Assembly (NCBI GenBank): GCA_029547745.1
Contig: JAKPOQ010000028.1
Span: forward strand, 1 to 39,132
Direction of reading: 5' to 3'
Length of the DNA stretch: 39,132 nucleotides
Source of the DNA: Actinomycetes bacterium
GTDB taxonomy: Bacteria; Actinomycetota; Thermoleophilia; UBA2241
Shown here one piece after another: positions 20,185-31,630 of this stretch. The translations under genes were made by a program, and so were the position numbers. Within the stretch, counting starts at the first letter, position 1. Every line of letters begins with the position of its first letter. The notes under the pieces are model-generated. The model was not told the origin of the DNA. It did not search any database and saw only the letters and a program-made list of their open reading frames with translations.

Positions 20185-20277
20185 CGCGAGACCCGGACAC
20201 CATGACGCGGCGGCCGGACATGGCGACCCGGCGCGGGACCGGTGGGTGGACCCGCGACGCAGAGAGAGGTGCATGAC

Positions 20278-21129
20278 GTGGACACGGACCCGGGCCCGAT
20301 CGGCCTGACCCAGACCCAGACGCAACGCCTGCGCGAGCTCGGCGCCGACCCGACGAAGCTCGAGGCGACGTACGCGTCGCCGGCGGCGCGGGACGCCGCC
20401 TTCAAAGAGCTCGAGGACGGGCTCGTGCGCGCCGGCAGGGCGCAGCTCGACGAGCTGCGCCGCAACCGGCGCGTCCCCGGCCTCATCGCGCTCCAGGCGG
20501 CGCTGCGCGCCGCCGTCACCGGCGCCGGCTTCGTCGAGGTCGTCACCCCCCACATCATCAGCGCTGAGGGACTCGTGAACATGGGCATCGGCCACGGCCA
20601 TCCGCTGCGCGAGCAGGTCTTCTGGCTCGAGGACGGAACCTGTCTGCGCCCCATGCTGGCGCCCAACCTCTACGTCATGATGCGCAAGCTGGGGCGCATC
20701 TGGAGCCGTCCCTTCGGCATCTTCGAGATGGGCACCTGCTTCCGCCGCGACACCAAGGGCAGCCACCACCTCAACGAGTTCACGATGCTGAACCTCGTCG
20801 AGGTCGGGCTGCCCATGGAGGCCCGCCGGTCGCGCCTCGAGGAGCTCGCCGCGACGGTCATGCAGGCCGCAGGCATCGCCGACTACGCCCTCGTCCATTC
20901 GACGTCCGAGGTCTACGGCGACATGCTCGACGTCGAGGTCGGCGGTGAGGAGGTCTGCTCCGCCTCGTTCGGCCCCATCCCCATGGACGACGACTTCGGT
21001 ATCACCGAGCCCTGGGTAGGCCTTGGGTTCGGTCTGGAGCGCCTGCTGATGGTGCGCGAGGTCTACCCCAACATCGAGCGCGGCGGCCGCAGCCTCACCT
21101 ACGTGGACGGTGTCCGCCTCAACATCTGA
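20278..21129 (+). CDS. pylS: Pyrrolysyl-tRNA synthetase catalytic subunit (PylSc)
   Basis: A class II synthetase of 283 residues corresponding to the C-terminal catalytic half of archaeal PylS. Class II motif 2 and the amino-acid pocket are in CLRPMLAPNLYVMMRKL (122-138) and FEMGTCFRR; motif 3 is GLGFGLERLL (248-257). Other hallmarks are HLNEFTMLN, EVYGDMLDV and GPIPMDDDFGI. By alignment from memory with the Methanosarcina enzyme, Asn346, Tyr384 and Trp417 correspond to Asn172, Tyr213 and Trp246, whereas Cys348 is Val174 and Leu309 is Met135. The tRNA-binding N-terminal domain is absent and encoded separately at 23657. GTG at 20278 is chosen from GAGAGAGG eight bases upstream. It may share a transcript with the CwlM-like gene. 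Confidence 0.96.
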   Translation: MDTDPGPIGLTQTQTQRLRELGADPTKLEATYASPAARDAAFKELEDGLVRAGRAQLDELRRNRRVPGLIALQAALRAAVTGAGFVEVVTPHIISAEGLVNMGIGHGHPLREQVFWLEDGTCLRPMLAPNLYVMMRKLGRIWSRPFGIFEMGTCFRRDTKGSHHLNEFTMLNLVEVGLPMEARRSRLEELAATVMQAAGIADYALVHSTSEVYGDMLDVEVGGEEVCSASFGPIPMDDDFGITEPWVGLGFGLERLLMVREVYPNIERGGRSLTYVDGVRLNI

Positions 21130-21172
21130 CCGCCCCCCCGACGACGAGCTGTCCGAGGAGGCCGGAGATGCT

Positions 21173-21220
21173 CGGGGAGGCGCGGGGGCGGGCCATATGG
21201 CCCGCCCCCGCGCCTCCCCG
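21173..21220. terminator. 48-bp perfect palindrome between convergent pylSc and corrinoid gene
   Basis: Positions 21173-21196 are the exact reverse complement of 21197-21220, centred on CATATG with no spacer. It lies between the stop of pylSc (21129) and the TAG stop of the corrinoid gene (21256-21254), so it can serve as a bidirectional terminator, though no T-run follows. Confidence 0.65.
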
Positions 21221-21253
21221 TCCCGCCGGGATCTCCCCGGCCGCCCGCGCCCC

Positions 21254-21892
21254 CTACTTCGCGAGCAGGGCGTCGATCTTCTTGACGCCGTCGTTGGCGT
21301 CCTCGGCGTAGGCGTCGGCGCCGATCTGGTCGGCCCAGCGCTGGGTCGCCGGGGCGCCGCCGACCACGGTCTTGTAGGGGAGGCCCGCTTCCTTCACCAT
21401 CTTGACGACCTTCTTCTGCTCCTCCATCGTCGTCGTCAGGAGGGCGCTCATGCCGATGACCTGGGCGCCGACCTCCTGGGCCTTGTCGATGAAGCTCTGA
21501 GCGGGGACGTCGCGGCCGAGGTCGGTGACCTCGTAGCCGTTGGCCTTGAGGTAGGCGATGACGATCGCCTTGCCGATGTCGTGCACGTCGCCCTGCACGG
21601 TGCCGATGACGACGCTGCCCTTGGTGGTCTGCTCGCCGACCTCGAGGGCGGCGTTCGTGATCTCGGTCGCCCCGGCCATGGCGTCGGCCGCCATCATCAG
21701 CTCGGGGAGGAACATCTCGCCGCTCTCGAAGAGCTCGCCGACCTCCTGGATGCCCTTGACGAAACCGTTCTGCATGATGTCACCGGGGGTCAGACCAGCC
21801 GCCAGCGCCCGCCGCGCGACGTCCTCGGCAGCCGCGCGGTCGGCGTTCACGATCGCCTCGCAGGCTTCCTTGTAGAGCTCTTCGTTCGCCAT
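21254..21892 (-). CDS. Methyltransferase corrinoid protein (MttC/MtbC/MtmC-like)
   Basis: A 212-residue cobalamin carrier protein. The N-terminal helical B12-binding cap (about 1-85, including ELFESGEMFLPELMMAADAM) is followed by the Rossmann-like B12 domain with DVHDIGK at 102-108, where His104 would be the lower cobalt ligand, and the GMSALLTTTM and VVGGAPATQRWAD loops. Such proteins accept a methyl group from methylamine or methoxyl methyltransferases and pass it on for methyl-H4folate or methyl-thiol formation. Its location beside pylSc suggests a methylamine pathway with a Pyl-containing methyltransferase, but the substrate cannot be read from this subunit. ATG at 21892 follows GGGAGGAG. 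It ends in TAG; readthrough would add 44 codons across the palindrome. Confidence 0.9.
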   Translation of the reverse strand: MANEELYKEACEAIVNADRAAAEDVARRALAAGLTPGDIMQNGFVKGIQEVGELFESGEMFLPELMMAADAMAGATEITNAALEVGEQTTKGSVVIGTVQGDVHDIGKAIVIAYLKANGYEVTDLGRDVPAQSFIDKAQEVGAQVIGMSALLTTTMEEQKKVVKMVKEAGLPYKTVVGGAPATQRWADQIGADAYAEDANDGVKKIDALLAK

Positions 21893-22076
21893 GACCCTGC
21901 ACTCCTCCCAACGTCGTTCGCAGCCGTCGCCTCCACGCGGGGTGCGGCTCAGGGAGCATATCAGCCGCACCCGCTCGCGCCCACACAGGCTAGGGCAAGC
22001 GTTTCATCCGACTGGATGACTGTCAAGGAGCGGGCGTCCGGGCGCGATGCCGAGGCGAGTGGCAGCCGCCCTCTGC

Positions 22077-22082
22077 TACACT
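22077..22082 (+). promoter_or_regulatory. Candidate -10 very close to a start codon (leaderless mRNA)
   Basis: TACACT at 22077-22082 ends seven bases before the ATG at 22090, where the next gene starts without a Shine-Dalgarno sequence. A transcript would begin at or next to the ATG. The -35 is not recognisable. Confidence 0.3.
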
Positions 22083-22089
22083 CACAGGC

Positions 22090-22968
22090 ATGCGGTACCG
22101 CGGCGCCGTGATCCGTCCCCCGAGCGAAGCCACGAGCCTCATCTTGCAGGTCACGTACGGCTGCTCGAACAACACCTGCGACTTCTGCGGGACGTACCTC
22201 GACAAGCCCTTCGCCGTGCGGCCTCCGCACGAGGTCGTCGAGGACGTCACAGGGCTGCCGGCGGCGGTCAAGGAGCGCGCCCAGCGCGTCTTCCTCGCCG
22301 ACGGCGACGCCCTCGCGCTCTCGTCCCGCCGTCTCCACGAGATCCTCGACCTGCTGCACGCCGAGCTCCCCAACCTCGAACGCGTGAGCTCCTACGCCAC
22401 GGCCAGGAACCTGCTCGAGAAGGACGTCGAGGAGCTGCGCTCGCTGCGCGAGCGCAAGCTCGAGCTCGTGTACCTCGGCCTCGAGTCGGGCGACGACGAG
22501 ACGCTCGCCGCCATCCACAAGGGCATCACGGTAGCCGAGCAGATCGCCGGCTGCCGGCGGGCGAAGGAAGCCGGCATGAAGCTCTCGGTCACGGCCATCC
22601 TCGGCCTCGCCGGGGCCGCCCGCTCGCTCGCGCACGGGCGGGCGACGGGCGAGGCCCTCTCCGTCATCGACCCCGAGTACATCGGCATCCTGACGCTCAT
22701 GCTCGTCCCCGGGACGCGCATGCACCGCAAGGTGGCGAGCGGCGAGCTCGTGCTGCCCGACGAGATCGGCATGCTCCGCGAGCTGCGCGAGATCGTCGCC
22801 CACACCGACGTCAGCGACTGTCTCTTCCGCTCGAACCACGCCTCGAACTACCTGCCCGTCGGCGGCCACCTGCCGCGCGACAAGGACGCCATGCTCGCGC
22901 AGCTCGACAAGGTGCTCAAGGCGCCGGAGTCGGTCCAGTTGCGGCCCGAGTCCTGGCGCGCCCTGTAA
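22090..22968 (+). CDS. Radical SAM protein of unknown substrate
   Basis: A 292-residue radical SAM protein with an Elp3/MiaB/NifB-like barrel. The cluster motif is GCSNNTCDFCGTY near residue 29, a Cx4Cx2C spacing found in a family whose members have GCSxNxCxFC. Later ELVYLGLESGDDETL and IGILTLMLVPGTRMH are usual barrel elements. No B12 or SPASM domain is seen. The start is ATG at 22090 with a -10-like box immediately upstream and no Shine-Dalgarno. It is divergent from the corrinoid gene, so a role in methylamine metabolism is possible but unsupported. Its function is unknown to me. Confidence 0.85.
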   Translation: MRYRGAVIRPPSEATSLILQVTYGCSNNTCDFCGTYLDKPFAVRPPHEVVEDVTGLPAAVKERAQRVFLADGDALALSSRRLHEILDLLHAELPNLERVSSYATARNLLEKDVEELRSLRERKLELVYLGLESGDDETLAAIHKGITVAEQIAGCRRAKEAGMKLSVTAILGLAGAARSLAHGRATGEALSVIDPEYIGILTLMLVPGTRMHRKVASGELVLPDEIGMLRELREIVAHTDVSDCLFRSNHASNYLPVGGHLPRDKDAMLAQLDKVLKAPESVQLRPESWRAL

Positions 22969-22978
22969 GGCCGCCGTC

Positions 22979-23611
22979 GTGCATGGCCAGTGGCGCTTCG
23001 CCGTCATGGTCGTCGCCGCCCTCGTCGTGGCGTCGGCCGTGTGGACCTGGCTGCCGCCCGACGACGGGACGCAGGCGGCCATACGCGACACGATCGCCCG
23101 CTTCGAGAGCGCGAAGTGGCTGGTGTGGCCGTCCGACCGCTACGGCGAGACGGACCTGTCGGCGCCGACCCGGGAACGGCTGGAGGACCGCCGGCATCGC
23201 GAGCTGATGACCCTCGCCGAAGGCGCCGCCCTCGAGGACGCCCTGCACGTCGACGCCGTCGCCGCCCTGCTGCGTTCGCCGAGACTCCGGGACGGCCGTC
23301 TCCCCGTGTCCTGTCGCGCCGACGTCGTGTACTTCGACGTCCGCCGTCGCACCTTGCGCGGCGAGCTCCTCGTCCGCGCTGCCTGCGACATCGTCCAGAC
23401 CACCGGGCGCTGGAACCCACGGACCGGCGAGATCGTCGATCTCGCCGAGGACGAACCTTCGACCCTGTGCCAGGTCTTCGACTACACGCTCGTGCAGCGC
23501 GGGAACGCCTGGCGCGTCGTCGCCAAGGAACCCGTCGGCAGTCAGGACGGCGGGCCCCCGTCCTTCTACGACCGCTCCACGGGCGCCTTCGTGCAGGACA
23601 CCGGCACATGA
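22979..23611 (+). CDS. Hypothetical membrane-anchored protein
   Basis: A 210-residue protein starting at GTG 22979, ten bases after the radical SAM gene, so probably co-transcribed with it. Residues about 8-26 (AVMVVAALVVASAVWTW) form a single N-terminal membrane anchor or uncleaved signal; the rest is predicted outside the cell. The soluble part has an NTF2-like flavour (TIARFESAKWLVWPSDRY, then paired beta strands such as VVYFDVRRRTLRGELLV and FDYTLVQRGNAWRVV), but I cannot assign a family. It converges with pylSn. Confidence 0.7.
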   Translation: MHGQWRFAVMVVAALVVASAVWTWLPPDDGTQAAIRDTIARFESAKWLVWPSDRYGETDLSAPTRERLEDRRHRELMTLAEGAALEDALHVDAVAALLRSPRLRDGRLPVSCRADVVYFDVRRRTLRGELLVRAACDIVQTTGRWNPRTGEIVDLAEDEPSTLCQVFDYTLVQRGNAWRVVAKEPVGSQDGGPPSFYDRSTGAFVQDTGT

Positions 23612-23619
23612 CCGACGTC

Positions 23620-23647
23620 GGCCCGCACGGGCCGGCCCGCACGGGCC
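23620..23647. terminator. Tandem duplicate of a 14-bp hairpin between convergent genes
   Basis: GGCCCGCACGGGCC occurs twice in a row (23620-23633 and 23634-23647). Each copy folds as GGCCC-GCAC-GGGCC. It lies exactly between the ends of the hypothetical gene and pylSn, so it is a likely bidirectional terminator. Confidence 0.5.
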
Positions 23648-23656
23648 GTCAGGGGT

Positions 23657-24001
23657 TCAGCCGCGCGACTCGTCTTCGTCCCTGAGGAACGAGCCGTAGT
23701 CACGGCGGAACTTCGTCGCCGCGTACTTCTGCAGCTTCCACTCCGGGATACGGCACTGCGGGCACGCCTCGACGAAGAGCTTGTTGCGCAACCAGCGGGC
23801 GGAGCGGCTGGTCTTGGAATCGCGCACGACCATGCGCTTGCCACAGTGCGTCACGATGACGGCGTGACGGCCACGGGGCTCGAACTCGCGCACGCCGTGG
23901 AGGATGCCGCGCCGCGAGGGCCACAGCTTCATCTTCTCGACGAGGCGGAAGAGCGGCACCTGCTTACGGTAGTAACGCGCCTTGTTCGGGTCGGTGGGCA
24001 T
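23657..24001 (-). CDS. pylSn: Pyrrolysyl-tRNA synthetase N-terminal tRNA-binding subunit (PylSn)
   Basis: A 114-residue protein matching the N-terminal domain of archaeal PylS, which grips the T-arm and variable loop of tRNA-Pyl. The core pattern is LWPSRRGILHGV, then VTHCGKRMVVRDSKTSRSAR, then ACPQCRIPEWKL. His35, Cys53, Cys80 and Cys83 reproduce the spacing (18, 27, 3) of the zinc ligands as I recall them for the Methanosarcina domain. In bacteria this domain is commonly a separate gene. Here it is about 2.5 kb from pylSc and on the other strand, 89 bases after a serine hydrolase gene. ATG at 24001 has only a weak Shine-Dalgarno sequence. The name could be missed by routine annotation because the domain is short and divergent. 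Confidence 0.93.
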   Translation of the reverse strand: MPTDPNKARYYRKQVPLFRLVEKMKLWPSRRGILHGVREFEPRGRHAVIVTHCGKRMVVRDSKTSRSARWLRNKLFVEACPQCRIPEWKLQKYAATKFRRDYGSFLRDEDESRG

Positions 24002-24090
24002 CTCGGCCGGTCACGGTAGAGGGCTTCAACGGCGGGCGTGTCAGAGAGCCGCTGTCGGACACACGTCAGCGTATCGCACCGGGCGTCACG

Positions 24091-25875
24091 TCACAGCGTC
24101 TCGACCCGATAGAAGGACAGGAAGTCATAGACCGCCCGCGTCGCCCTGCCGTCGATGACCGCGTCGAGCGCAAGCCTGTCGGGACGCCACTCCTCGCACC
24201 CCACGCGATACGTGCCGTCGGCGAGCGGTACGAGCTCGACCTCGCCGCCCGGCTCCTCGACCCACGGCGCGATCAGCCACAGGGCGCCCCTCCGGGCGAC
24301 GATGCGCAGGTGGCTCATCCACGGGTCCCAACAACCGTAGTGGCCGCACACTTCGGAAGCGCGGGGGACGGAGGGGAAAGCAGCCGGGCCACCGTAGGCG
24401 GGCCCGGCGTACCAGTCCGGACCGTGCGTCGCATACGCGATGCGGCCGTCGGCGTCACGCCAGAACCGCAGGGCGAAGCGGTCGAGGTCGGGGTGCGGCA
24501 CGAGGAAGACGTCGACGCCGGCGCGCTCGAGGACGACGTCGACGCCGTCGTACCGGAGCACGAGACGGCCGCCTTCGCCGACGAGCGTGAGCGAGTCGGC
24601 GTCTCGGCCGTCACCGGCCGACCCGGCTCTCGCCGCGTGAGCGGGCGCACCGGAGACCGCATCGCCGCCGCGCGGCGCCGCAGAGGGATCGCCGAGATCC
24701 GGCGCCTCGTAGACGCCGGCGTACTCCTGCGCCGCGACGCCCAGGTCGCGCGGGTCGGCGGGCGGCGGCGGCGCGGGCACGACGTGCCCCGCCGCCGCCG
24801 CCCGCCCCGCCGCGAGCACGTCGTCGACGAGGTCGCGGCGCTCCTCGTTGCCGTTCATCAACACGACGACGCCGAGCCCCGCTCCGGGGTCGATCATCAG
24901 GTACGAGCTGAAGCCGACCATGCCGCCCGAATGCCCGATCAGGGTGCGACCGTCGACCCTGTAGACCCCGAGCCCGTATCCGTACCACGCGCCGGCCTCC
25001 GTCGGGTCCTCCACATGCCGTGTGGTCAGCAGCCGGAACGCGTCCTCGTTCAGCACGCGCCCGCCGGGCGCCTCGCCGGCGTTCAGGAGCAGCCGCGCGT
25101 ACACACACATGTCCTCCGCCGTCGACACGATGCTGCCGTCGGCACTCGACGACTCGAACCAGGGGCTCGGGACCAGAGGGTGGCCGGTGTGACGCGGTCG
25201 GTCATCGAAGAGGCGCTGGTGGGGTGTCGCTGTCGTGACCCTCATCGCCAGGGTGATCATGGGCGCGCTGTCCCGCATGCCGAGCGGGCCGAGCAGCCTC
25301 TGCGCGAGGAGTTCGGGGAACGGTGTCCCTGTGACCTCTTCGAGCACGACGCCGATCAGCTTGTAGCCGTCGTTCGAGTACAGGAAGCGCTCACCCGGAG
25401 GGTACGTGCAGGCGAAGTCGCGCAGGAGCCAAAGGGCGTGACGAGCGTCGAGGCTCGCCTCGGTACCCGTCGCGAGGCCGGACGTATGGGTCAGCAGATG
25501 GTGGACGGTGATAGGCGCGAAGGGGGAGCGGACGGCGAACCACGGCACGTAGTCCGTCACCGGGGCGTGGAGGTCGATGCGCCCCGCGTCGACTTCCTGG
25601 AGCAGGATGATGGCCGCGAACGACTTGCTGATCGAACCGATCTGAAAACGGTCGGACGGCGCCATCGGGCGCCGGGCGGCGAGGTCGGCCCACCCGTGCG
25701 CGGCCACCCCCAGCGTGCGCTCACGATCGCTGAGGCCGACCACGACGCCCGGCGCATGCCAGCGCGGCAGGCGCGCATCGACGAAGGCGCCGACCCGCTG
25801 CATCAGCGGGCCGACGTCCCACGGTCCAGCCGAGTCGCCCTTGTCCACGACCCGCGTTCCACCCGCGCCCGTCAT
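24091..25875 (-). CDS. Serine hydrolase, class C beta-lactamase family
   Basis: A 594-residue protein whose first ~380 residues are a penicillin-binding-protein/class C beta-lactamase fold. The nucleophile motif SISK is at 81-84, YSN at 166-168 and HSGG near 290. A proline/alanine-rich linker then leads to an extra C-terminal beta-rich domain of about 200 residues, as in the DUF3471/lipocalin-like tails of such esterases and peptidases. No signal peptide is visible from ATG 25875; a longer upstream frame overlaps gerM on the other strand and is not credible. The substrate is unknown (D-aminopeptidase, esterase or cell-wall peptidase). It is followed on the same strand by pylSn. Confidence 0.85.
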   Translation of the reverse strand: MTGAGGTRVVDKGDSAGPWDVGPLMQRVGAFVDARLPRWHAPGVVVGLSDRERTLGVAAHGWADLAARRPMAPSDRFQIGSISKSFAAIILLQEVDAGRIDLHAPVTDYVPWFAVRSPFAPITVHHLLTHTSGLATGTEASLDARHALWLLRDFACTYPPGERFLYSNDGYKLIGVVLEEVTGTPFPELLAQRLLGPLGMRDSAPMITLAMRVTTATPHQRLFDDRPRHTGHPLVPSPWFESSSADGSIVSTAEDMCVYARLLLNAGEAPGGRVLNEDAFRLLTTRHVEDPTEAGAWYGYGLGVYRVDGRTLIGHSGGMVGFSSYLMIDPGAGLGVVVLMNGNEERRDLVDDVLAAGRAAAAGHVVPAPPPPADPRDLGVAAQEYAGVYEAPDLGDPSAAPRGGDAVSGAPAHAARAGSAGDGRDADSLTLVGEGGRLVLRYDGVDVVLERAGVDVFLVPHPDLDRFALRFWRDADGRIAYATHGPDWYAGPAYGGPAAFPSVPRASEVCGHYGCWDPWMSHLRIVARRGALWLIAPWVEEPGGEVELVPLADGTYRVGCEEWRPDRLALDAVIDGRATRAVYDFLSFYRVETL

Positions 25876-26019
25876 CGCCTGTCCACCGTGACCGTCATCG
25901 CTCGCCCATGATAGCCGCTCTGAGGCGCGCGCGAGGTCAAGACCGCAGCATCTTCGGCGCAGGACTGGCGCCCGGTCGGGCGAAGAACAAGGTTCCCGTT
26001 GCCGAGAGGAGCGTGACCG

Positions 26020-26931
26020 ATGAGACGCGTCGTCAGCGCCGTCGCCGCCCTGGCCATCACCGTCGCCGCCGTCCTCGCCCTGGCCTTCGCATTCGCGTCC
26101 GGGCTCGGCGCCTGCGAGGGCGACGAGGACTCGCCGCCGCCCGCGGCGACGGTGACCGTCACCGAGACCGCCTCGCCGACTGCGTCGTCGCCGTCCGACT
26201 CCCGGGGCGGTGGGATGACCGTCTCGGTCTACCTCATGCGTGGCGAACACCTCGGCGTCAGTCACCGGACGGTGCCCTCGTCTGCCGCCGTCGCCACGGC
26301 GGCCATGAACGCGCTGCTCGCCGGCCCGAACGCGCGCGAGAGGGCCGCCGGCCTCGGCACGGCGATCCCCGCAGGCACGACGCTCAACGGCGTCGTCGTC
26401 GAGGGTGGGACGGCGCGCGTCGACCTCAGTGGGGAGTTCGCGGCGGGCGGCGGCTCCCTCTCGATGCAGGCGCGCGTCGCGCAGGTCGTCTACACGCTCA
26501 CCCAGTTCCGTACGGTCCGGCGTGTCGACTTCCTCATCGACGGCGGCCGTGTCGAGACGCTCGGCGGCGAGGGGATCATGCTCCACGCCGGTCAACGACG
26601 CTCCGACTGGAACGACCTTCTGCCGGCGATCTTCGTCGAGACGCCGGCGGTCGGTGGCACGGTGCGAAGCCCGCTGACCGTGGCCGGCACCGCCATGGTC
26701 TTCGAGGCGACCTTCGTGACCGAAGTGCTCGACGAGGAAGGGGAGATCCTGGCCCAGGAGACGGTGACGGCTTCACGCGGCGCCCCCCAGCGCGGGAGGT
26801 TCTCGGTCGAGATCGGGTTCCTCACGCACGGGGCGCGACGCGGTGCGCTCCTCGTCTACGAGGTCTCGATGGCCGACGGTTCGCGCCTCAACCAGGTGCG
26901 CATCCCGCTGCGCTTCGCCGTCGGGCAGTGA
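26020..26931 (+). CDS. GerMN-Gmad2 domain lipoprotein
   Basis: A 303-residue exported lipoprotein. The signal segment (1-31) ends in a lipobox LGAC with Cys32, then a Thr/Ser/Pro linker. The GerMN domain spans about 66-185 (VSVYLMRGEH, TAAMNALLAGP, RVDLSGEF, VVYTLTQFRTVRRVDFLIDG). A Gmad2 immunoglobulin-like domain follows (about 205-300; PAIFVETPAVGGTVRSPLTV). In Bacillus GerM is a spore envelope protein; many non-sporulating actinobacteria keep lipoproteins of this kind (for example next to MtrAB). ATG at 26020 follows GAGAGGAG. It stands alone between leftward Pyl genes. Confidence 0.88.
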   Translation: MRRVVSAVAALAITVAAVLALAFAFASGLGACEGDEDSPPPAATVTVTETASPTASSPSDSRGGGMTVSVYLMRGEHLGVSHRTVPSSAAVATAAMNALLAGPNARERAAGLGTAIPAGTTLNGVVVEGGTARVDLSGEFAAGGGSLSMQARVAQVVYTLTQFRTVRRVDFLIDGGRVETLGGEGIMLHAGQRRSDWNDLLPAIFVETPAVGGTVRSPLTVAGTAMVFEATFVTEVLDEEGEILAQETVTASRGAPQRGRFSVEIGFLTHGARRGALLVYEVSMADGSRLNQVRIPLRFAVGQ

Positions 26932-26976
26932 TTCGGTACGTCCCGGCCCCGCCACGCGCACCCGCCGAGGCATGAT

Positions 26977-27049
26977 TGGCGGGGACTGCGGGAGTCACAC
27001 CCGCCTGCGTGGGTTTAGAGCCCACGCTGATCCTTCCGATCGAGCCCCC
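26977..27049 (-). tRNA. pylT: tRNA-Pyl (amber suppressor, anticodon CTA)
   Basis: Read on the minus strand, 73 bases fold as a tRNA with the peculiarities of tRNA-Pyl. The acceptor is GGGGGCT pairing with AGTCCCC (one G-T pair), then discriminator G and an encoded CCA. One base separates the acceptor from a GATC/GATC D-stem whose loop is only GGAAG. The anticodon loop is CTCTAAA with anticodon CTA (27018-27016), on a stem CGTGGG/CCCACG. The variable loop is CAG and the T-arm is GCGGG-TGTGACT-CCCGC. It closely resembles the Desulfitobacterium tRNA-Pyl as I recall it. One extra base between the D and anticodon stems can pair with the first variable-loop base to make a seven-pair anticodon stem. 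Confidence 0.97.
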
Positions 27050-27060
27050 GCGCCAAGTCG

Positions 27061-27101
27061 ATGATAGCGCAAGCCCGACGGCTCCGCTGCGCTCTGAGCG
27101 C
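27061..27101 (-). promoter_or_regulatory. Candidate pylT promoter and palindromic site
   Basis: On the minus strand TATCAT (27066-27061) lies 11 bases before the tRNA 5' end, so transcription would begin a few bases upstream of it. No good -35 is seen; at that position lies a palindrome GCGCTC-T-GAGCGC (27089-27101) that might be an activator or repressor site. pylT may also be made by readthrough from pylD. Confidence 0.4.
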
Positions 27102-27126
27102 ACGGCGCCGGTCGACGACCAAGAAG

Positions 27127-27180
27127 TCCCGGTCGTCACGCATGTTCCCGGTCGTCAGCGCGTGCTCCCGACCGTCAGCG
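27127..27180. repeat. Three tandem 19-20-base repeats across the pylD stop codon
   Basis: Units beginning TCCCGGTCGTCA.. occur at 27127, 27146 and 27166 (the last reads TCCCGACCGTCA). On the minus strand the first unit is still coding (GCG CTG ACG), while in the second the phase shifts and TGA of the same motif becomes the pylD stop. Confidence 0.6.
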
Positions 27181-28081
27181 CCCGGGCCGCCATCACCGCG
27201 ACGCCGACGGCGAGCGGTTCGTGGATGTGTCGCTCGCCGAGCAGTGCTCGCGCCTCGGCGTCGAACGCCGGCGGTACGCCGGGGGCGGCGGCGATGGCGC
27301 CCGGGCGCAGGTCTGCGGCATGGACGATGTCGGCCGCCGGCGTCGCGTCGAAGACGAGGTCGCAGCGTCGCAGGCCCTCGGCCAGGTCGACCGCGGTGAA
27401 GACGAGGCCGTCGGCGCGGGCGCGGTCGACCGCGGCAGGGTCGCGCTCGGCGACGAAGAGGTCGGCGCCGAGGGCGGCCAGGCGGCGGCCGGCGGCGCGG
27501 CCGACCGGGCCCAGCCCGAGGAGCAGCACGGGACGGCCGGCCAGCCCGCCGGCCGCCGCCGCCAGCGCGGTCGCATAGCCGTCGGCCGTGGCGGGATCGT
27601 CGTCGGCGCAGACGCCCGTACGGATGTTCAAGGCGATGAAGCGGAAGTCGTCGGCGACGAACACGACCTCGTCGCCGCCGTCGACGGCCTGCTGCAGGCC
27701 ACGCACGTCAGGCGCCTCCGTCACCCGCGCCGCGCAGCCGAGGTGGCGCAGGATCGCGACGACACCCTCACAGAAGCCCGGGATGAACCCCTCGCCCTGG
27801 CTGATGGGCACGGCGGCGATGCGCGCGCCGGCGAACGGCACGTCCTCGCTCGCGGGAACGTCGGGGAAAGAAGCCGCAGGCGCCGGCGACGCGGCTGTAG
27901 GGGCCGTCCTGTGGTCGTTGCCGCCGGACGGCTCCTGGGCCGCGACCAGCGCCCGGTCGATGTCGACGGTGCGTTGCGCGAGCGCCCGCAGGGTCAACCC
28001 CGTCGCGGCGACAAGATTCTGCTCGAACTCGACCACGCGAGCGCCCAGGTCGCGAACATCCTGCTCCGTCAAGCGAGTCAC
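27155..28081 (-). CDS. pylD: PylD, 3-methylornithyl-lysine dehydrogenase/cyclase
   Basis: PylD performs the last step of Pyl biosynthesis, NAD-dependent oxidation of 3R-methyl-D-ornithyl-N6-L-lysine followed by ring closure to pyrrolysine. The 308-residue protein opens LTEQDVRDL, like archaeal PylD. It continues with the conserved AAVPISQGEGFIPGFCEGV, APDVRGLQQAVDGGDEVVF and ADDFRFIALNIRTG blocks, a Rossmann motif LLGLGPVGRAAG, DATPAADI and APGVPPAF. A Pro/Ala-rich insertion of roughly 30-40 residues near residue 55 makes it longer than the archaeal ~260-270. GTG at 28081 is preferred (GGGGA upstream, family-like N-terminus); GTG at 28126 would overlap pylC. It follows pylC by 28 bases. Confidence 0.96.
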   Translation of the reverse strand: MTRLTEQDVRDLGARVVEFEQNLVAATGLTLRALAQRTVDIDRALVAAQEPSGGNDHRTAPTAASPAPAASFPDVPASEDVPFAGARIAAVPISQGEGFIPGFCEGVVAILRHLGCAARVTEAPDVRGLQQAVDGGDEVVFVADDFRFIALNIRTGVCADDDPATADGYATALAAAAGGLAGRPVLLLGLGPVGRAAGRRLAALGADLFVAERDPAAVDRARADGLVFTAVDLAEGLRRCDLVFDATPAADIVHAADLRPGAIAAAPGVPPAFDAEARALLGERHIHEPLAVGVAVMAARALTVGSTR

Positions 28082-28109
28082 ATCGTCCCCGTGTGTCTCG
28101 CCATCGCGT

Positions 28110-29315
28110 TCAGGGACAAGGCTCACCCTCAGGTCGAAGCTGAAGCCGTTCCTCTGCCGCCGCTGCGGCGACCGCCTCGTCCGCTCTGGCGCGTGCTTCG
28201 GCGACGGTCCGGCCTGCGGCGATCAGCGTCGCCGCCCATGTCGGTCTCCCGGGCTCGTAATCGGTGAGCGCCTCGTCGACGCCGAAGAACCCCGGCGCCT
28301 TGGCGAGCGGACGGGCGCTGCCCATGACGTGTTCCCCCGCGACCTCGAGCCGCCCATCCCGGGCGTGGACGTGCTCGAAGACGCAAGCCCGCTTCGGCTC
28401 GCGGTCCACAGCGGGGACGCGGCCCTCCCGGAAGGTCCGCGTGAGCATCTCGACGATGTTGATCCTGCTGGACCAGTAAACGGCTGTCGGCGTCTGGCTC
28501 GGCAGGCGGGCGTCGATCTCGAGCACCCTGGGCTGCGCGTCGTGGACCATGACCTCCACGTCCATGAGCCCGCGCAGCCCGAGACCCTCGGCGAGCCTCA
28601 CGGTGACGCCGGCGAACGTCTCGAGGACGCCGGCGGGGAGGCGGCAGCCCCAGCCGGCTGCCGCCTCCCCGCCGGCGTCGCCCTCGGCGACCGGAGCGAC
28701 GACACGCTTGCAGTCGAACCCTTCGTCGAACTCGAGACCCGTCACCTGGAGCGGCACGGCGACGCCGTCCCAGCACAGCACCTCGAGCGAGAGCGACGGG
28801 CCGGCGACGTACTCCTCGACGACGACCTCGTGACCCTTCCCCTCGAGCGCTCCGCGCGCCTCATCGAGCCCACGCCCGTCGCAGACGACCCTGACGCCCA
28901 CGCTACCGCTCGCTCCGCTGGGTTTGACGACGAGCGGGAACCCCGCCTGCGGCCACGGTCGCGGTCGCGGCACGTCGAGGCGCGCGAACAGGGCGTTCGA
29001 GGCGATCTTCGACGACGTCACCCGGTATGCGTCGAAGTCGAACAGCAGCGGGACGTCCCAAGCCGGCACGTGCGCGTCCAGCCAGGCCAAGGTCGCGTCG
29101 TCCTCGCAGGCCGGGAGCACGGCGTCGCAAGACCCAAGCACGGCACGGGTCCGTTCACCGTCTTCCATCACGTCCATGATCACGTGACGGTCGGTTAGGC
29201 CGGCGGCGGGCGGCGCCTCACGGCGGTCCACGAGGACCGTCTCGTACCCTGCTTTGGCGGCGAGGTACGCAGCCTCGATCCCCTGCAGCTTGCCGCCGAC
29301 GATCGCGAGCCTCAC
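28110..29315 (-). CDS. pylC: PylC, 3-methylornithine--L-lysine ligase
   Basis: An ATP-grasp ligase joining 3-methylornithine to the epsilon amine of lysine in Pyl biosynthesis, 401 residues. The N-terminus RLAIVGGKLQGIEAAYLAAK is nearly diagnostic for PylC. The ATP-grasp core shows FPLVVKPSGASGSVGV, VVVEEYVAGPSLSLEVL, GFDCKRV, LRGLMDVEVMV and LEIDARLPSQTPTAVYWSS. Residues 213-230 are an extra 18-residue segment that is exactly one 54-base perfect inverted repeat. GTG at 29315 overlaps the pylB stop as GTGA, with AAGGAGG eight bases upstream. The chain is longer than archaeal PylC because of this insertion and an Ala-rich C-terminal tail. Confidence 0.97.
   Translation of the reverse strand: MRLAIVGGKLQGIEAAYLAAKAGYETVLVDRREAPPAAGLTDRHVIMDVMEDGERTRAVLGSCDAVLPACEDDATLAWLDAHVPAWDVPLLFDFDAYRVTSSKIASNALFARLDVPRPRPWPQAGFPLVVKPSGASGSVGVRVVCDGRGLDEARGALEGKGHEVVVEEYVAGPSLSLEVLCWDGVAVPLQVTGLEFDEGFDCKRVVAPVAEGDAGGEAAAGWGCRLPAGVLETFAGVTVRLAEGLGLRGLMDVEVMVHDAQPRVLEIDARLPSQTPTAVYWSSRINIVEMLTRTFREGRVPAVDREPKRACVFEHVHARDGRLEVAGEHVMGSARPLAKAPGFFGVDEALTDYEPGRPTWAATLIAAGRTVAEARARADEAVAAAAAEERLQLRPEGEPCP
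28626..28679. repeat. 54-bp palindromic element inside pylC, in codon phase
   Basis: 28626-28649 is the perfect reverse complement of 28656-28679 (24-bp arms, six-base loop). It spans exactly codons 213-230 of pylC and coincides with a Gly/Ala-rich stretch that archaeal PylC appears to lack. Confidence 0.8.
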
Positions 29316-30457
29316 GCCGGGGCCTCCTTCGGCGGCGGCGCGGCCGCGGCTGACGCGGCAGACCCGCGTCCCGCCGCGGAGGCGCGCAGACGCTCCAGCG
29401 TCAGGCAATAAGCGGCGGGACCGGCGGGGCGCAACCCCAGACGCTCCAGGTGGGGCAGCACGCCGGCGACCGTCCGGTAGCCTTCGTCGATGTCGAGCAC
29501 CGCGTTCGACACGCCGGCGAGACCGGTGGCCGGCGGCACGATCGACGTGACGACGTTCGCGCCGGCCAGCAGCCGACGCTCAAGACCGCGGATGCCGTCG
29601 ACGTCGAGGGAAGCAGGGATGAGCCGGTCGGGAAGCACGAGACGCAGGACGGCGATCGTCAGCAACTCCGCGAGGTCGCCTTGCGGAGGCACGCCGGCAA
29701 GCGGGGTGCCTTCTTGAGGCACGAACGTCATGACGCGCACCTGTTCCCAGGCCTCGTCGCGCATCGCCGCGACCGAGCGCGCGCGGTCGGCCGCCGTGTC
29801 GCCGATGCCGGTCAGCATGCCGTCCTCGACGAGGAGGCCGGCGGCGCGCGCGCCGCGGCGCGCCGCGGCGCGCGCGCCGAACGCCTGCCCGACACGCAGG
29901 CGCGCGTACAGCTCCGGCGTGTGCGTCTCCTGATAGAGGGCATACCAGTCCGCCCCGGCGGCGCGCAGGTCGCGCAGGGCGGCGTCCGGGAGCACGCCGG
30001 GCGAGACCATCACCGGCAGACCCGTCGCCGCCCGCACCGCGGACACGAGGTCCAACAGGGTGCGATAGCCGGGCTCGCCATGGATGACCGGGTCCTCCCC
30101 CATCGTGAGGTCGAGGAGGTCCACACCCGACGCGGCGAGACCTTCACAGACGGCGACGACCTCCTCCACGGTCTTGCGGTACCTCGGACTCATGGGATTG
30201 CCGGCGCGGTAGTAGCAGAACGCGCACGCGTTGCGGCAGTACGTCGAGAAGTAGACGAAGCCATAGAGGAAGACGCCGTCGCCGAAGTGCGCGGCGCGCG
30301 CCCGGCGAGCGGCGGCGAAGACCTCGCCGGCGAGGATCTCGTCGTCGATCGCGAGCAGCGTCTCGAGCTCCCTTTCGGCGAGCGGAGCGCCATCGAGGGC
30401 GGCCGCGCACAGGGCGCACACCTCGTCCCGAAGAGACCTCGTCCCTAAGCCGGTCAT
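29312..30457 (-). CDS. pylB: PylB, 3-methylornithine synthase (radical SAM)
   Basis: PylB is the radical SAM mutase turning L-lysine into 3R-methyl-D-ornithine, the first Pyl-specific step. The 381-residue protein has YFSTYCRNACAFCYY with cluster ligands Cys74, Cys78 and Cys81. It continues with DLTMGEDP, MVSPGVLPDAAL, ALYQETHTPELYARLRVGQ, EDGMLTGIGD, VRVMTFVPQEGTPLAG and LIPASLDVDGIRGLE, all blocks known from archaeal PylB. ATG at 30457 has AAGGAG upstream. The C-terminus carries an extra Ala-rich tail. It follows the nitroreductase gene by 25 bases and overlaps pylC by four, so B-C-D (and perhaps T) form one transcript. Confidence 0.97.
   Translation of the reverse strand: MTGLGTRSLRDEVCALCAAALDGAPLAERELETLLAIDDEILAGEVFAAARRARAAHFGDGVFLYGFVYFSTYCRNACAFCYYRAGNPMSPRYRKTVEEVVAVCEGLAASGVDLLDLTMGEDPVIHGEPGYRTLLDLVSAVRAATGLPVMVSPGVLPDAALRDLRAAGADWYALYQETHTPELYARLRVGQAFGARAAARRGARAAGLLVEDGMLTGIGDTAADRARSVAAMRDEAWEQVRVMTFVPQEGTPLAGVPPQGDLAELLTIAVLRLVLPDRLIPASLDVDGIRGLERRLLAGANVVTSIVPPATGLAGVSNAVLDIDEGYRTVAGVLPHLERLGLRPAGPAAYCLTLERLRASAAGRGSAASAAAAPPPKEAPA
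29842..29879. repeat. 38-bp perfect palindrome inside pylB
   Basis: The segment equals its own reverse complement with no spacer, composed only of G and C. It encodes the FGARAAARRGARAAG region (about residues 193-206), a stretch that aligns without a gap to other PylB proteins, so it is not an insertion. Confidence 0.75.
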
Positions 30458-31360: not shown

Positions 31361-31630
31361 TCATCCGCCCGAGAGCGGCGGGACGACCAGCATCTTGTCG
31401 CCGTCCTCGAGCGGCGTGTCCAGCCCCTGACGGACGTTGATGTTGCGCCCGTTGAGGAACACGCCGGCGTACATGCGCCCGTCGTCGCGGAAGATGCGCG
31501 GCCGCAGGCGCGGTTCGACGGCGATCGCCTTCTCGATCGCCTCGCGGACCGTGGCGGCGTCGCACTCGATCTCACCCCGCCCGTCAGGCGTCGTCATCCC
31601 GGCCGGCAGCTTCAGGAACACCCTGGCCAT
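31361..31630 (-). CDS. MoaD/ThiS-like ubiquitin-fold sulfur carrier
   Basis: An 89-residue beta-grasp protein ending in ..PPLSGG, the Gly-Gly tail that becomes a thiocarboxylate in MoaD and ThiS. Internal features are VREAIEKAIAVEPRLRPRIF and VFLNGRNINVRQGLDTPLEDGDKMLV, a typical MoaD pattern. It is the last gene of the AOR-ferredoxin operon, so it probably supplies sulfur for the tungsto- or molybdopterin of the oxidoreductase; such small MoaD genes often travel with aor. ATG at 31630 lies four bases after the ferredoxin stop. Confidence 0.88.
   Translation of the reverse strand: MARVFLKLPAGMTTPDGRGEIECDAATVREAIEKAIAVEPRLRPRIFRDDGRMYAGVFLNGRNINVRQGLDTPLEDGDKMLVVPPLSGG

Follow-up and report, generated by a model that had tools for sequence, protein, structure and literature searches.

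Pyrrolysine is the rare 22nd amino acid, inserted at UAG codons, and most accounts treat its presence in bacteria as scattered and acquired. Among the described systems, that of Methanosarcina has a fused synthetase, PylS, and contiguous pylTSBCD genes. The class S systems of Bacillota (Desulfitobacterium, Sporomusa and Desulfosporosinus) encode separate PylSn and PylSc proteins together with PylB, PylC, PylD and a CUA tRNA-Pyl, and are usually organized as one cluster, pylTScBCDSn or pylSnScBCD (PMC3941956). Two Actinobacteria with pyrrolysine have already been reported (PMC11764691), and a metatranscriptome showed that Actinobacteriota MAGs from Stordalen Mire express pyrrolysine-type mttB and mtbB (PMC10805028). 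The occurrence of pyrrolysine in Actinobacteria as such is therefore already in print. The accessible parts of the latter report describe the expressed methyltransferase genes as found through amber truncation and do not describe a pyl locus, the tRNA or an order-wide distribution.

Organization of the pyl locus

The window, that is, the whole analyzed stretch of 39,132 nucleotides (contig JAKPOQ010000028.1), is part of a fragmented actinobacterial MAG of 203 contigs. It contains the following features between positions 20278 and 30457:

20278-21129, plus strand: pylSc, catalytic subunit of the split pyrrolysyl-tRNA synthetase (TIGR02367, 298.8 bits, cut-off 178)
21173-21220, no strand: perfect palindrome of 48 bp, with 24-nt arms that are 100% complementary and have no spacer
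21254-21892, minus strand: mttC-type corrinoid protein (TIGR02370, 218.8 bits, cut-off 215.3)
22090-22968, plus strand: radical SAM protein (PF04055, 57 bits)
23657-24001, minus strand: pylSn, tRNA-binding small subunit of the split synthetase (TIGR03912, 121.6 bits, cut-off 51)
26977-27049, minus strand: pylT, tRNA-Pyl with anticodon CUA, 73 nt (ARAGORN)
27155-28126, minus strand: pylD, dehydrogenase finishing pyrrolysine (TIGR03911, 185.7 bits, cut-off 150; PDB 4j43)
28110-29321, minus strand: pylC, ligase for methylornithine and lysine (TIGR03909, 358 bits, cut-off 248; PDB 4ffl)
29312-30457, minus strand: pylB, radical SAM methylornithine synthase (TIGR03910, 439 bits, cut-off 348; PDB 3t7v)

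The pyl proteins were identified by profile matches above curated cut-offs together with their namesake structures in PDB. PylSc was most similar to the Desulfitobacterium-type PylSc (3dsq/2zni, E 3e-86), and PylSn matched 5ud5, the N-terminal domain of PylRS. The pylSc gene starts with GTG, with a possible alternative GTG upstream at 20242. An earlier note, made from the letters of this DNA, had proposed six intact pyl parts within about 10 kb, and this was borne out by all five protein profiles and by ARAGORN. It had omitted the corrinoid gene mttC between pylSc and the rest. This gene terminates with TAG, and its product carries the B12-binding domains PF02310 and PF02607; judged by its family, it is probably the cognate methyl carrier. 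The 48-bp palindrome lies between the convergent pylSc and mttC and may serve as a bidirectional terminator of both.

The pylSc, pylSn and pylBCDT genes form three separate transcription units with other genes interleaved, in contrast to the contiguous genes of Methanosarcina and the usual single cluster of Bacillota. As for the interleaved neighbors named before, the GerMN protein (Germane/Gmad2) and the radical SAM protein were recovered by family scan, while the serine hydrolase is a putative one, recognized by eye through an SxxK-type motif and by similarity in two relatives. The radical SAM neighbor is kept in the lineage, with 68-80% identity across Thermoleophilia-type loci. The same interleaved order is shared by related, independent Thermoleophilia/Actinomycetota MAGs, and the MAG isolate bog_752 (L078) also carries it. 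Judged from this gene order, the layout is a lineage trait and not a scrambled cassette. Six independent, specific families within 10 kb, in an arrangement recurring in independent MAGs, exclude a chance assembly. A different organization was displayed by the compact pyl operons L070, L071, L105 and L109, whose hosts are also Actinomycetota and whose PylBs belong to the same group as that of the window; these operons are arranged on one strand as pylT-Sn-Sc-B-C(-D), with a tRNA-Pyl of 72 nt.

The tRNA-Pyl of the window folds as a tRNA and was called by ARAGORN with the CTA anticodon proposed earlier, whereas the Rfam search for tRNA-Pyl gave no match at the gathering threshold. The features listed for tRNA-Pyl concern the D loop, the anticodon stem, the variable loop and the spacing between acceptor and D stems (PMC11764691). 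The window's tRNA displayed the CUA anticodon, a single base between acceptor and D stem and a D loop of five bases, while the 6-bp anticodon stem and the 3-base variable loop fit if an extra junction pair is left uncounted. This seventh pair exists in every relative, where it is G-C, G-U or A-U. The tRNA is one nucleotide longer than usual, and the additional nucleotide lies between the D stem and the anticodon stem. All 11 Thermoleophilia-type loci showing a tRNA had this 73-nt form, whereas the other bacterial tRNA-Pyls seen were mostly of 72 nt, with a few of 73 nt carrying the extra base in the D loop. The PylSn/PylSc pair may recognize the 73-nt tRNA-Pyl differently from other class S pairs.

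Distribution and amber methyltransferases

In a phylum sample of 397 genomes, PylB exceeded the cut-off only in the window's genome and in one other of its class, while PylSc was detected in 14 of the 15 genomes examined for the window's order. The host, earlier called an unusual carrier, is thus unusual at the scale of the phylum but not within its order, and amber mtbB genes in all 15 order genomes and the published pyrrolysine-bearing Actinobacteria speak against an isolated one. The phylogeny of PylB placed Actinomycetota in one group apart from Bacillota (support 98), and the PylB of the window was nested inside this group. The pyl genes could be foreign or recent cargo of little use to the host, either on a contaminating contig or transferred from Bacillota or methanogens, as the rarity across the phylum and the literature view that bacterial pyrrolysine spread by transfer (PMC9723677) would suggest. 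However, the order-wide presence largely refutes this reading, the PylB phylogeny also opposes it, and a nitroreductase-like gene, the gene at 31437 and an amidase accompany the pyl genes in related MAGs. Moreover, the GC content of the window (70%) matched that of the genome sample (69.7%), in agreement with the GC-rich actinobacterial host proposed before. We consider a foreign origin of this kind very improbable.

Twelve methyltransferase genes of the window's genome, five mttB and seven mtbB, each carry a single in-frame TAG where pyrrolysine is known to be encoded. The earlier note had stated that a genome without any conserved amber gene would refute its proposal, and these genes show that this is not the case. 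Amber mttB is also common to the Bacillota class S systems, MttB and MtbB are target families in Methanosarcina too, whose pathway is the same, and both amber enzyme families occur in the Stordalen Mire Actinobacteriota, which belong to the same phylum (PMC10805028). The in-frame TAG of MttB lies in the motif VAG-x-O-x-D and that of MtbB in DG[L/Y]-O-xG; its distance from the C-terminus is fixed, at 160-168 codons in MttB and 103-136 in MtbB. Across the order, the number of amber mtbB matches per genome ranged from 3 to 11 and that of MttB-family matches from 20 to 40. In all 15 genomes, every MtbB match aligned across the site had one TAG, neither more nor fewer.

If these TAGs were true stops, the methyltransferase genes would be split or decaying and the system a relic. 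Elsewhere in the genome TAG does look like an ordinary stop, and it even ends four of the 12 amber genes (in L055, L056, L057 and one of the two MtbB in L053). Nevertheless, dozens of genes from the 15 genomes share the TAG at a single homologous position, every MtbB match covering the site has it, and the downstream frame is open and conserved, which makes decay a highly unlikely explanation. Still less credible is a decoding of UAG by some other suppressor tRNA that mostly delivers an amino acid other than pyrrolysine, since the lineage retains a dedicated tRNA-Pyl as a set with PylSn, PylSc and all of pylB, pylC and pylD.

The genome search suggested earlier had also included mtmB. The MtmB homologue at C115:15572-16933 of the same genome had no in-frame stop, and an Ile aligned with the Pyl residue of 1l2q in place of an amber codon at the Pyl202 position. 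By its sequence this protein is a non-Pyl MtmB homologue, a type with one demonstrated function, MtqB (PMC13044021). Candidates for a selenocysteine-type MttB with in-frame TGA (G399:C25 and G404:C464) were rejected, as the TGAs were gene boundaries and not internal codons. No amber proteins besides the 12 methyltransferases were found in 514 kb of the window's own genome (about 23% of it); other TAG-ended genes with a coding extension proved to be adjacent genes, among them sdhC-sdhD and a pair encoding an ABC permease and its ATPase, or non-coding continuations. A RamA at the level of TIGR04270 was not found in the stretches examined, where the activase seen scored 127.7 (cut-off 500) and was more AcsV-like. 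The acetyl-CoA synthase family PF03598 was present in eight of the 15 order genomes and was not found in that of the window.

Taken together, we regard it as very probable that the locus encodes a working bacterial-type split (PylSn plus PylSc) pyrrolysine system, one that this actinobacterial order has long possessed. By analogy with the known families, PylB would convert lysine to methylornithine, PylC would join methylornithine to a second lysine, and PylD would oxidize the product to pyrrolysine. PylSc, aided by PylSn, would charge pyrrolysine onto the CUA tRNA-Pyl, and the ribosome would insert it at the in-frame UAG of the five MttB and seven MtbB. These enzymes, with substrates assigned by family, would demethylate tri- and dimethylamine and load the methyl groups onto corrinoid proteins, of which the MttC of the locus is one example, and the host may accordingly be predicted to grow on methylamines.

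UAG as apparent stop and probable sense codon

Stop codons were counted in sampled genome stretches with a home-made gene caller. UAG was the apparent stop of about 15% of the host's genes, compared with under 6% in Pyl archaea (PMC9723677). Pooled TAG stops amounted to 94 of 634 in four Pyl-bearing order genomes versus 114 of 357 in six class members outside the order, all six with PylB below the cut-off; the ranges (7-21% versus 15-51%) overlap and the genomes are related, so that these lower counts are only suggestive of UAG avoidance.

Of 67 sense TAGs, 63 were followed by G and four by A. A special context at sense UAG was rejected, because this bias is imposed by the following amino acid. 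Between TAG and TGA stops there was no clear difference at the +4 position, and no surplus of backup stops was detected.

In the genome of the window, no prfA scored above the cut-off. However, loss of RF1 with full reassignment of UAG was rejected, as prfA is present in the same-genus genome G408 and in most of the order. On contigs C11 and C153 the neighbor genes run to the contig ends exactly at the place expected for prfA, indicating that the missing gene is an assembly gap.

A stronger reading, which we put forward tentatively and consider possible rather than probable, is that the order combines fixed pyrrolysine and its own class of 73-nt tRNA-Pyl with a stably ambiguous UAG, which would stand for pyrrolysine in many methylamine methyltransferases and terminate about 15% of genes, at times with both readings in a single gene. 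The order-wide fixation, the junction base of the 73-nt tRNA-Pyl and this share of UAG stops are possibly new details.

Implications

A whole actinobacterial order seems to have pyrrolysine as part of its core equipment. The abundance of amber mtbB and MttB-family genes per genome suggests that these organisms live on methylamines and that many of their proteins are cut off at the amber codon by ordinary gene callers. The lineage provides a natural case for studying how one gene can use UAG in both roles, and its PylSn/PylSc/tRNA sets are new material for genetic code expansion.

The pyl locus and its layout

An earlier note had claimed a complete pyrrolysine system at 20278-30457. The six features that it named (PylSc, PylSn, PylB, PylC, PylD and tRNA-Pyl) were all found intact and above curated thresholds, and the five Pyl proteins each matched the solved structure of their own namesake. 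The list fell short of complete, since it left out the corrinoid protein gene (mttC) at 21254-21892.

Features of the pyl locus
20278-21129, + strand, PylSc, above curated threshold, structure match 3dsq/2zni
21254-21892, - strand, corrinoid protein gene (mttC), passes the pyl_corrinoid model
22090-22968, radical SAM protein without an assigned family, adjoins pylSn in Thermoleophilia-type loci
23657-24001, - strand, PylSn, above curated threshold, match to 5ud5 (PylSn-equivalent domain)
26977-27049, - strand, tRNA-Pyl, CTA anticodon, tRNA fold with z-score -3.0
27155-28126, - strand, PylD, above curated threshold, structure match 4j43
28110-29321, - strand, PylC, above curated threshold, structure match 4ffl
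29312-30457, - strand, PylB, above curated threshold, structure match 3t7v

The convergent pylSc and mttC are separated by a GC-rich perfect palindrome of 48 bp (21173-21220). The radical SAM protein could be a pathway accessory; a relative (64% identical) is located near the compact operon of locus L109.

Enzymes of the PylB, PylC and PylD families build pyrrolysine out of two lysines; PylSc, aided by PylSn, loads it onto tRNA-Pyl; and MttB and MtbB that contain the residue move methyl groups of tri- and dimethylamine onto corrinoid proteins. Judging from these families, the window's PylB, PylC and PylD would make pyrrolysine from two lysines and its PylSc and PylSn would charge the tRNA-Pyl. 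Pyrrolysine would then be inserted in the host's MttB and MtbB, which would pass tri- and dimethylamine methyl groups to corrinoid proteins, among them the MttC encoded in the locus.

The Thermoleophilia-type loci were arranged as 31437 gene, nitroreductase-like gene, pylB, pylC, pylD and pylT, followed by GerMN and/or serine hydrolase, pylSn, radical SAM, mttC, pylSc and amidase. This order was nearly complete in L064 and L073, and partial runs ended by contig ends were present in nine more loci. The interleaved layout is thus a trait of the lineage, and the locus is unlikely to stem from contamination. The layout is not absolute, as in G408 (same genus) amidase and pylSc occur together while pylSn and mttC were not within the sampled 20 kb. 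In contrast, L070, L071, L105 and L109 from other Actinomycetota displayed a compact pylT-Sn-Sc-B-C-type operon.

Distribution and phylogeny

Of 397 phylum genomes sampled, just two passed the PylB cut-off: the window's genome and G044 (same class). In the order sample (15 genomes, all one family), PylSc was present in 14 and MtbB with one TAG in all 15, with 3 to 11 MtbB matches per genome, some of them fragments. Thus, at the phylum level the trait is rare, but within the order it is general. The sole order genome without PylSc, G401 (84% complete), nonetheless encodes amber MtbB.

A PylB scan of named genomes gave Thermoleophilia and Actinomycetota MAGs as closest (identity up to 74%). A quick tree was built from 81 PylB proteins. 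Of its 16 Actinomycetota rows, 15 formed one group (support 98) apart from Bacillota; the remaining one, L088, was placed outside it, and a long-branched Methanomethylicus PylB lay inside it.

The window's pyl set belongs to an already known kind of system. Pyrrolysine was noted earlier in two Actinobacteria (PMC11764691), and another report describes expression of Pyl mttB and mtbB by Actinobacteriota (PMC10805028). A literature search for pyrrolysine with Thermoleophilia returned little beyond passing co-mention. No earlier description of fixation throughout the order, of the interleaved locus and its conservation, or of the 73-nt tRNA form was found in the literature consulted, though one may exist elsewhere.

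All 11 Thermoleophilia-type tRNA-Pyl genes found were 73 nt long, with two nucleotides, not one, between D stem and anticodon stem. The tRNA-Pyl of the other loci compared were mostly 72 nt, and other bacterial 73-nt forms carry the extra base in the D loop instead of the D/anticodon junction. The extra junction nucleotide can form a base pair with the variable loop's first base, which would lengthen the anticodon stem to seven pairs. Among nine distinct sequences this seventh pair was G-U, G-C or A-U, and it was broken in none. Over the whole cloverleaf, both-side changes occurred in 6 pairs, above most shuffles.

Amber methyltransferases

The window's genome (2.27 Mb, 203 contigs, 95.8% complete) contained 20 MttB-family matches, five with one in-frame TAG, and seven MtbB matches, each with one TAG. 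By the earlier note, its claim would be refuted by a genome devoid of conserved in-frame amber genes; these five MttB and seven MtbB are such genes. The TAG lies in VAG-x-TAG-x-D in MttB and DG[L/Y]-TAG-xG in MtbB, and its distance to the C-terminus is fixed across the order in both families. By what is established for the two families, these positions are the published pyrrolysine sites. Each of the 15 order genomes, 2-4 Mb in size, had 20 to 40 MttB-family matches, most of them non-Pyl, an unusually large expansion.

The single MtmB homologue of the window's genome (G000:C115:15572-16933; L009, L048:10555-11937) has no in-frame stop and carries isoleucine where, in the alignment, the solved enzyme has pyrrolysine. 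It neighbours a corrinoid protein, a GntI/thiamine kinase-type kinase and a transporter-like gene. Comparable non-Pyl homologues occurred in seven further order genomes, in two score groups. There are precedents for MtmB homologues of this non-Pyl kind, including a tetramethylammonium/choline methyltransferase (PMC13044021).

Of the order's 15 genomes, 8 carried acetyl-CoA synthase (PF03598), which was not found in the window's genome. An AcsV/RamA-type reductive activator, under both curated cut-offs, is located near one mttB cluster. At L049:16493-17791, a lysine 2,3-aminomutase (TIGR03820, 590 bits) adjoins an AcsV/RamA-like activase, and an amber mttB is close by.

UAG as stop and probable sense codon

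With the 12 amber methyltransferases set aside, TAG terminated 57 of 380 called genes (15%) in 514 kb of own-genome stretches. TAG stops were scarcer in sampled Pyl-bearing genomes (94 among 634) than in six other class members (114 among 357), though the ranges overlapped. No special context was found downstream of TAG. Release factor 1 was found in most order genomes. Its absence from the window's genome is only apparent and explained by an assembly gap. On the simplest reading, RF1 may compete with charged tRNA-Pyl, some read-through being tolerated.

TAG was also the terminal stop in 10 of the order's 61 amber methyltransferase genes with visible ends. These included four of the 12 in the window's genome (L055, L056, L057 and one of two MtbB in L053), and amber mttB or mtbB of order relatives in L180, L183, L184, L190, L258 and L263. 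In such genes, one codon would serve as both sense and stop within the same gene.
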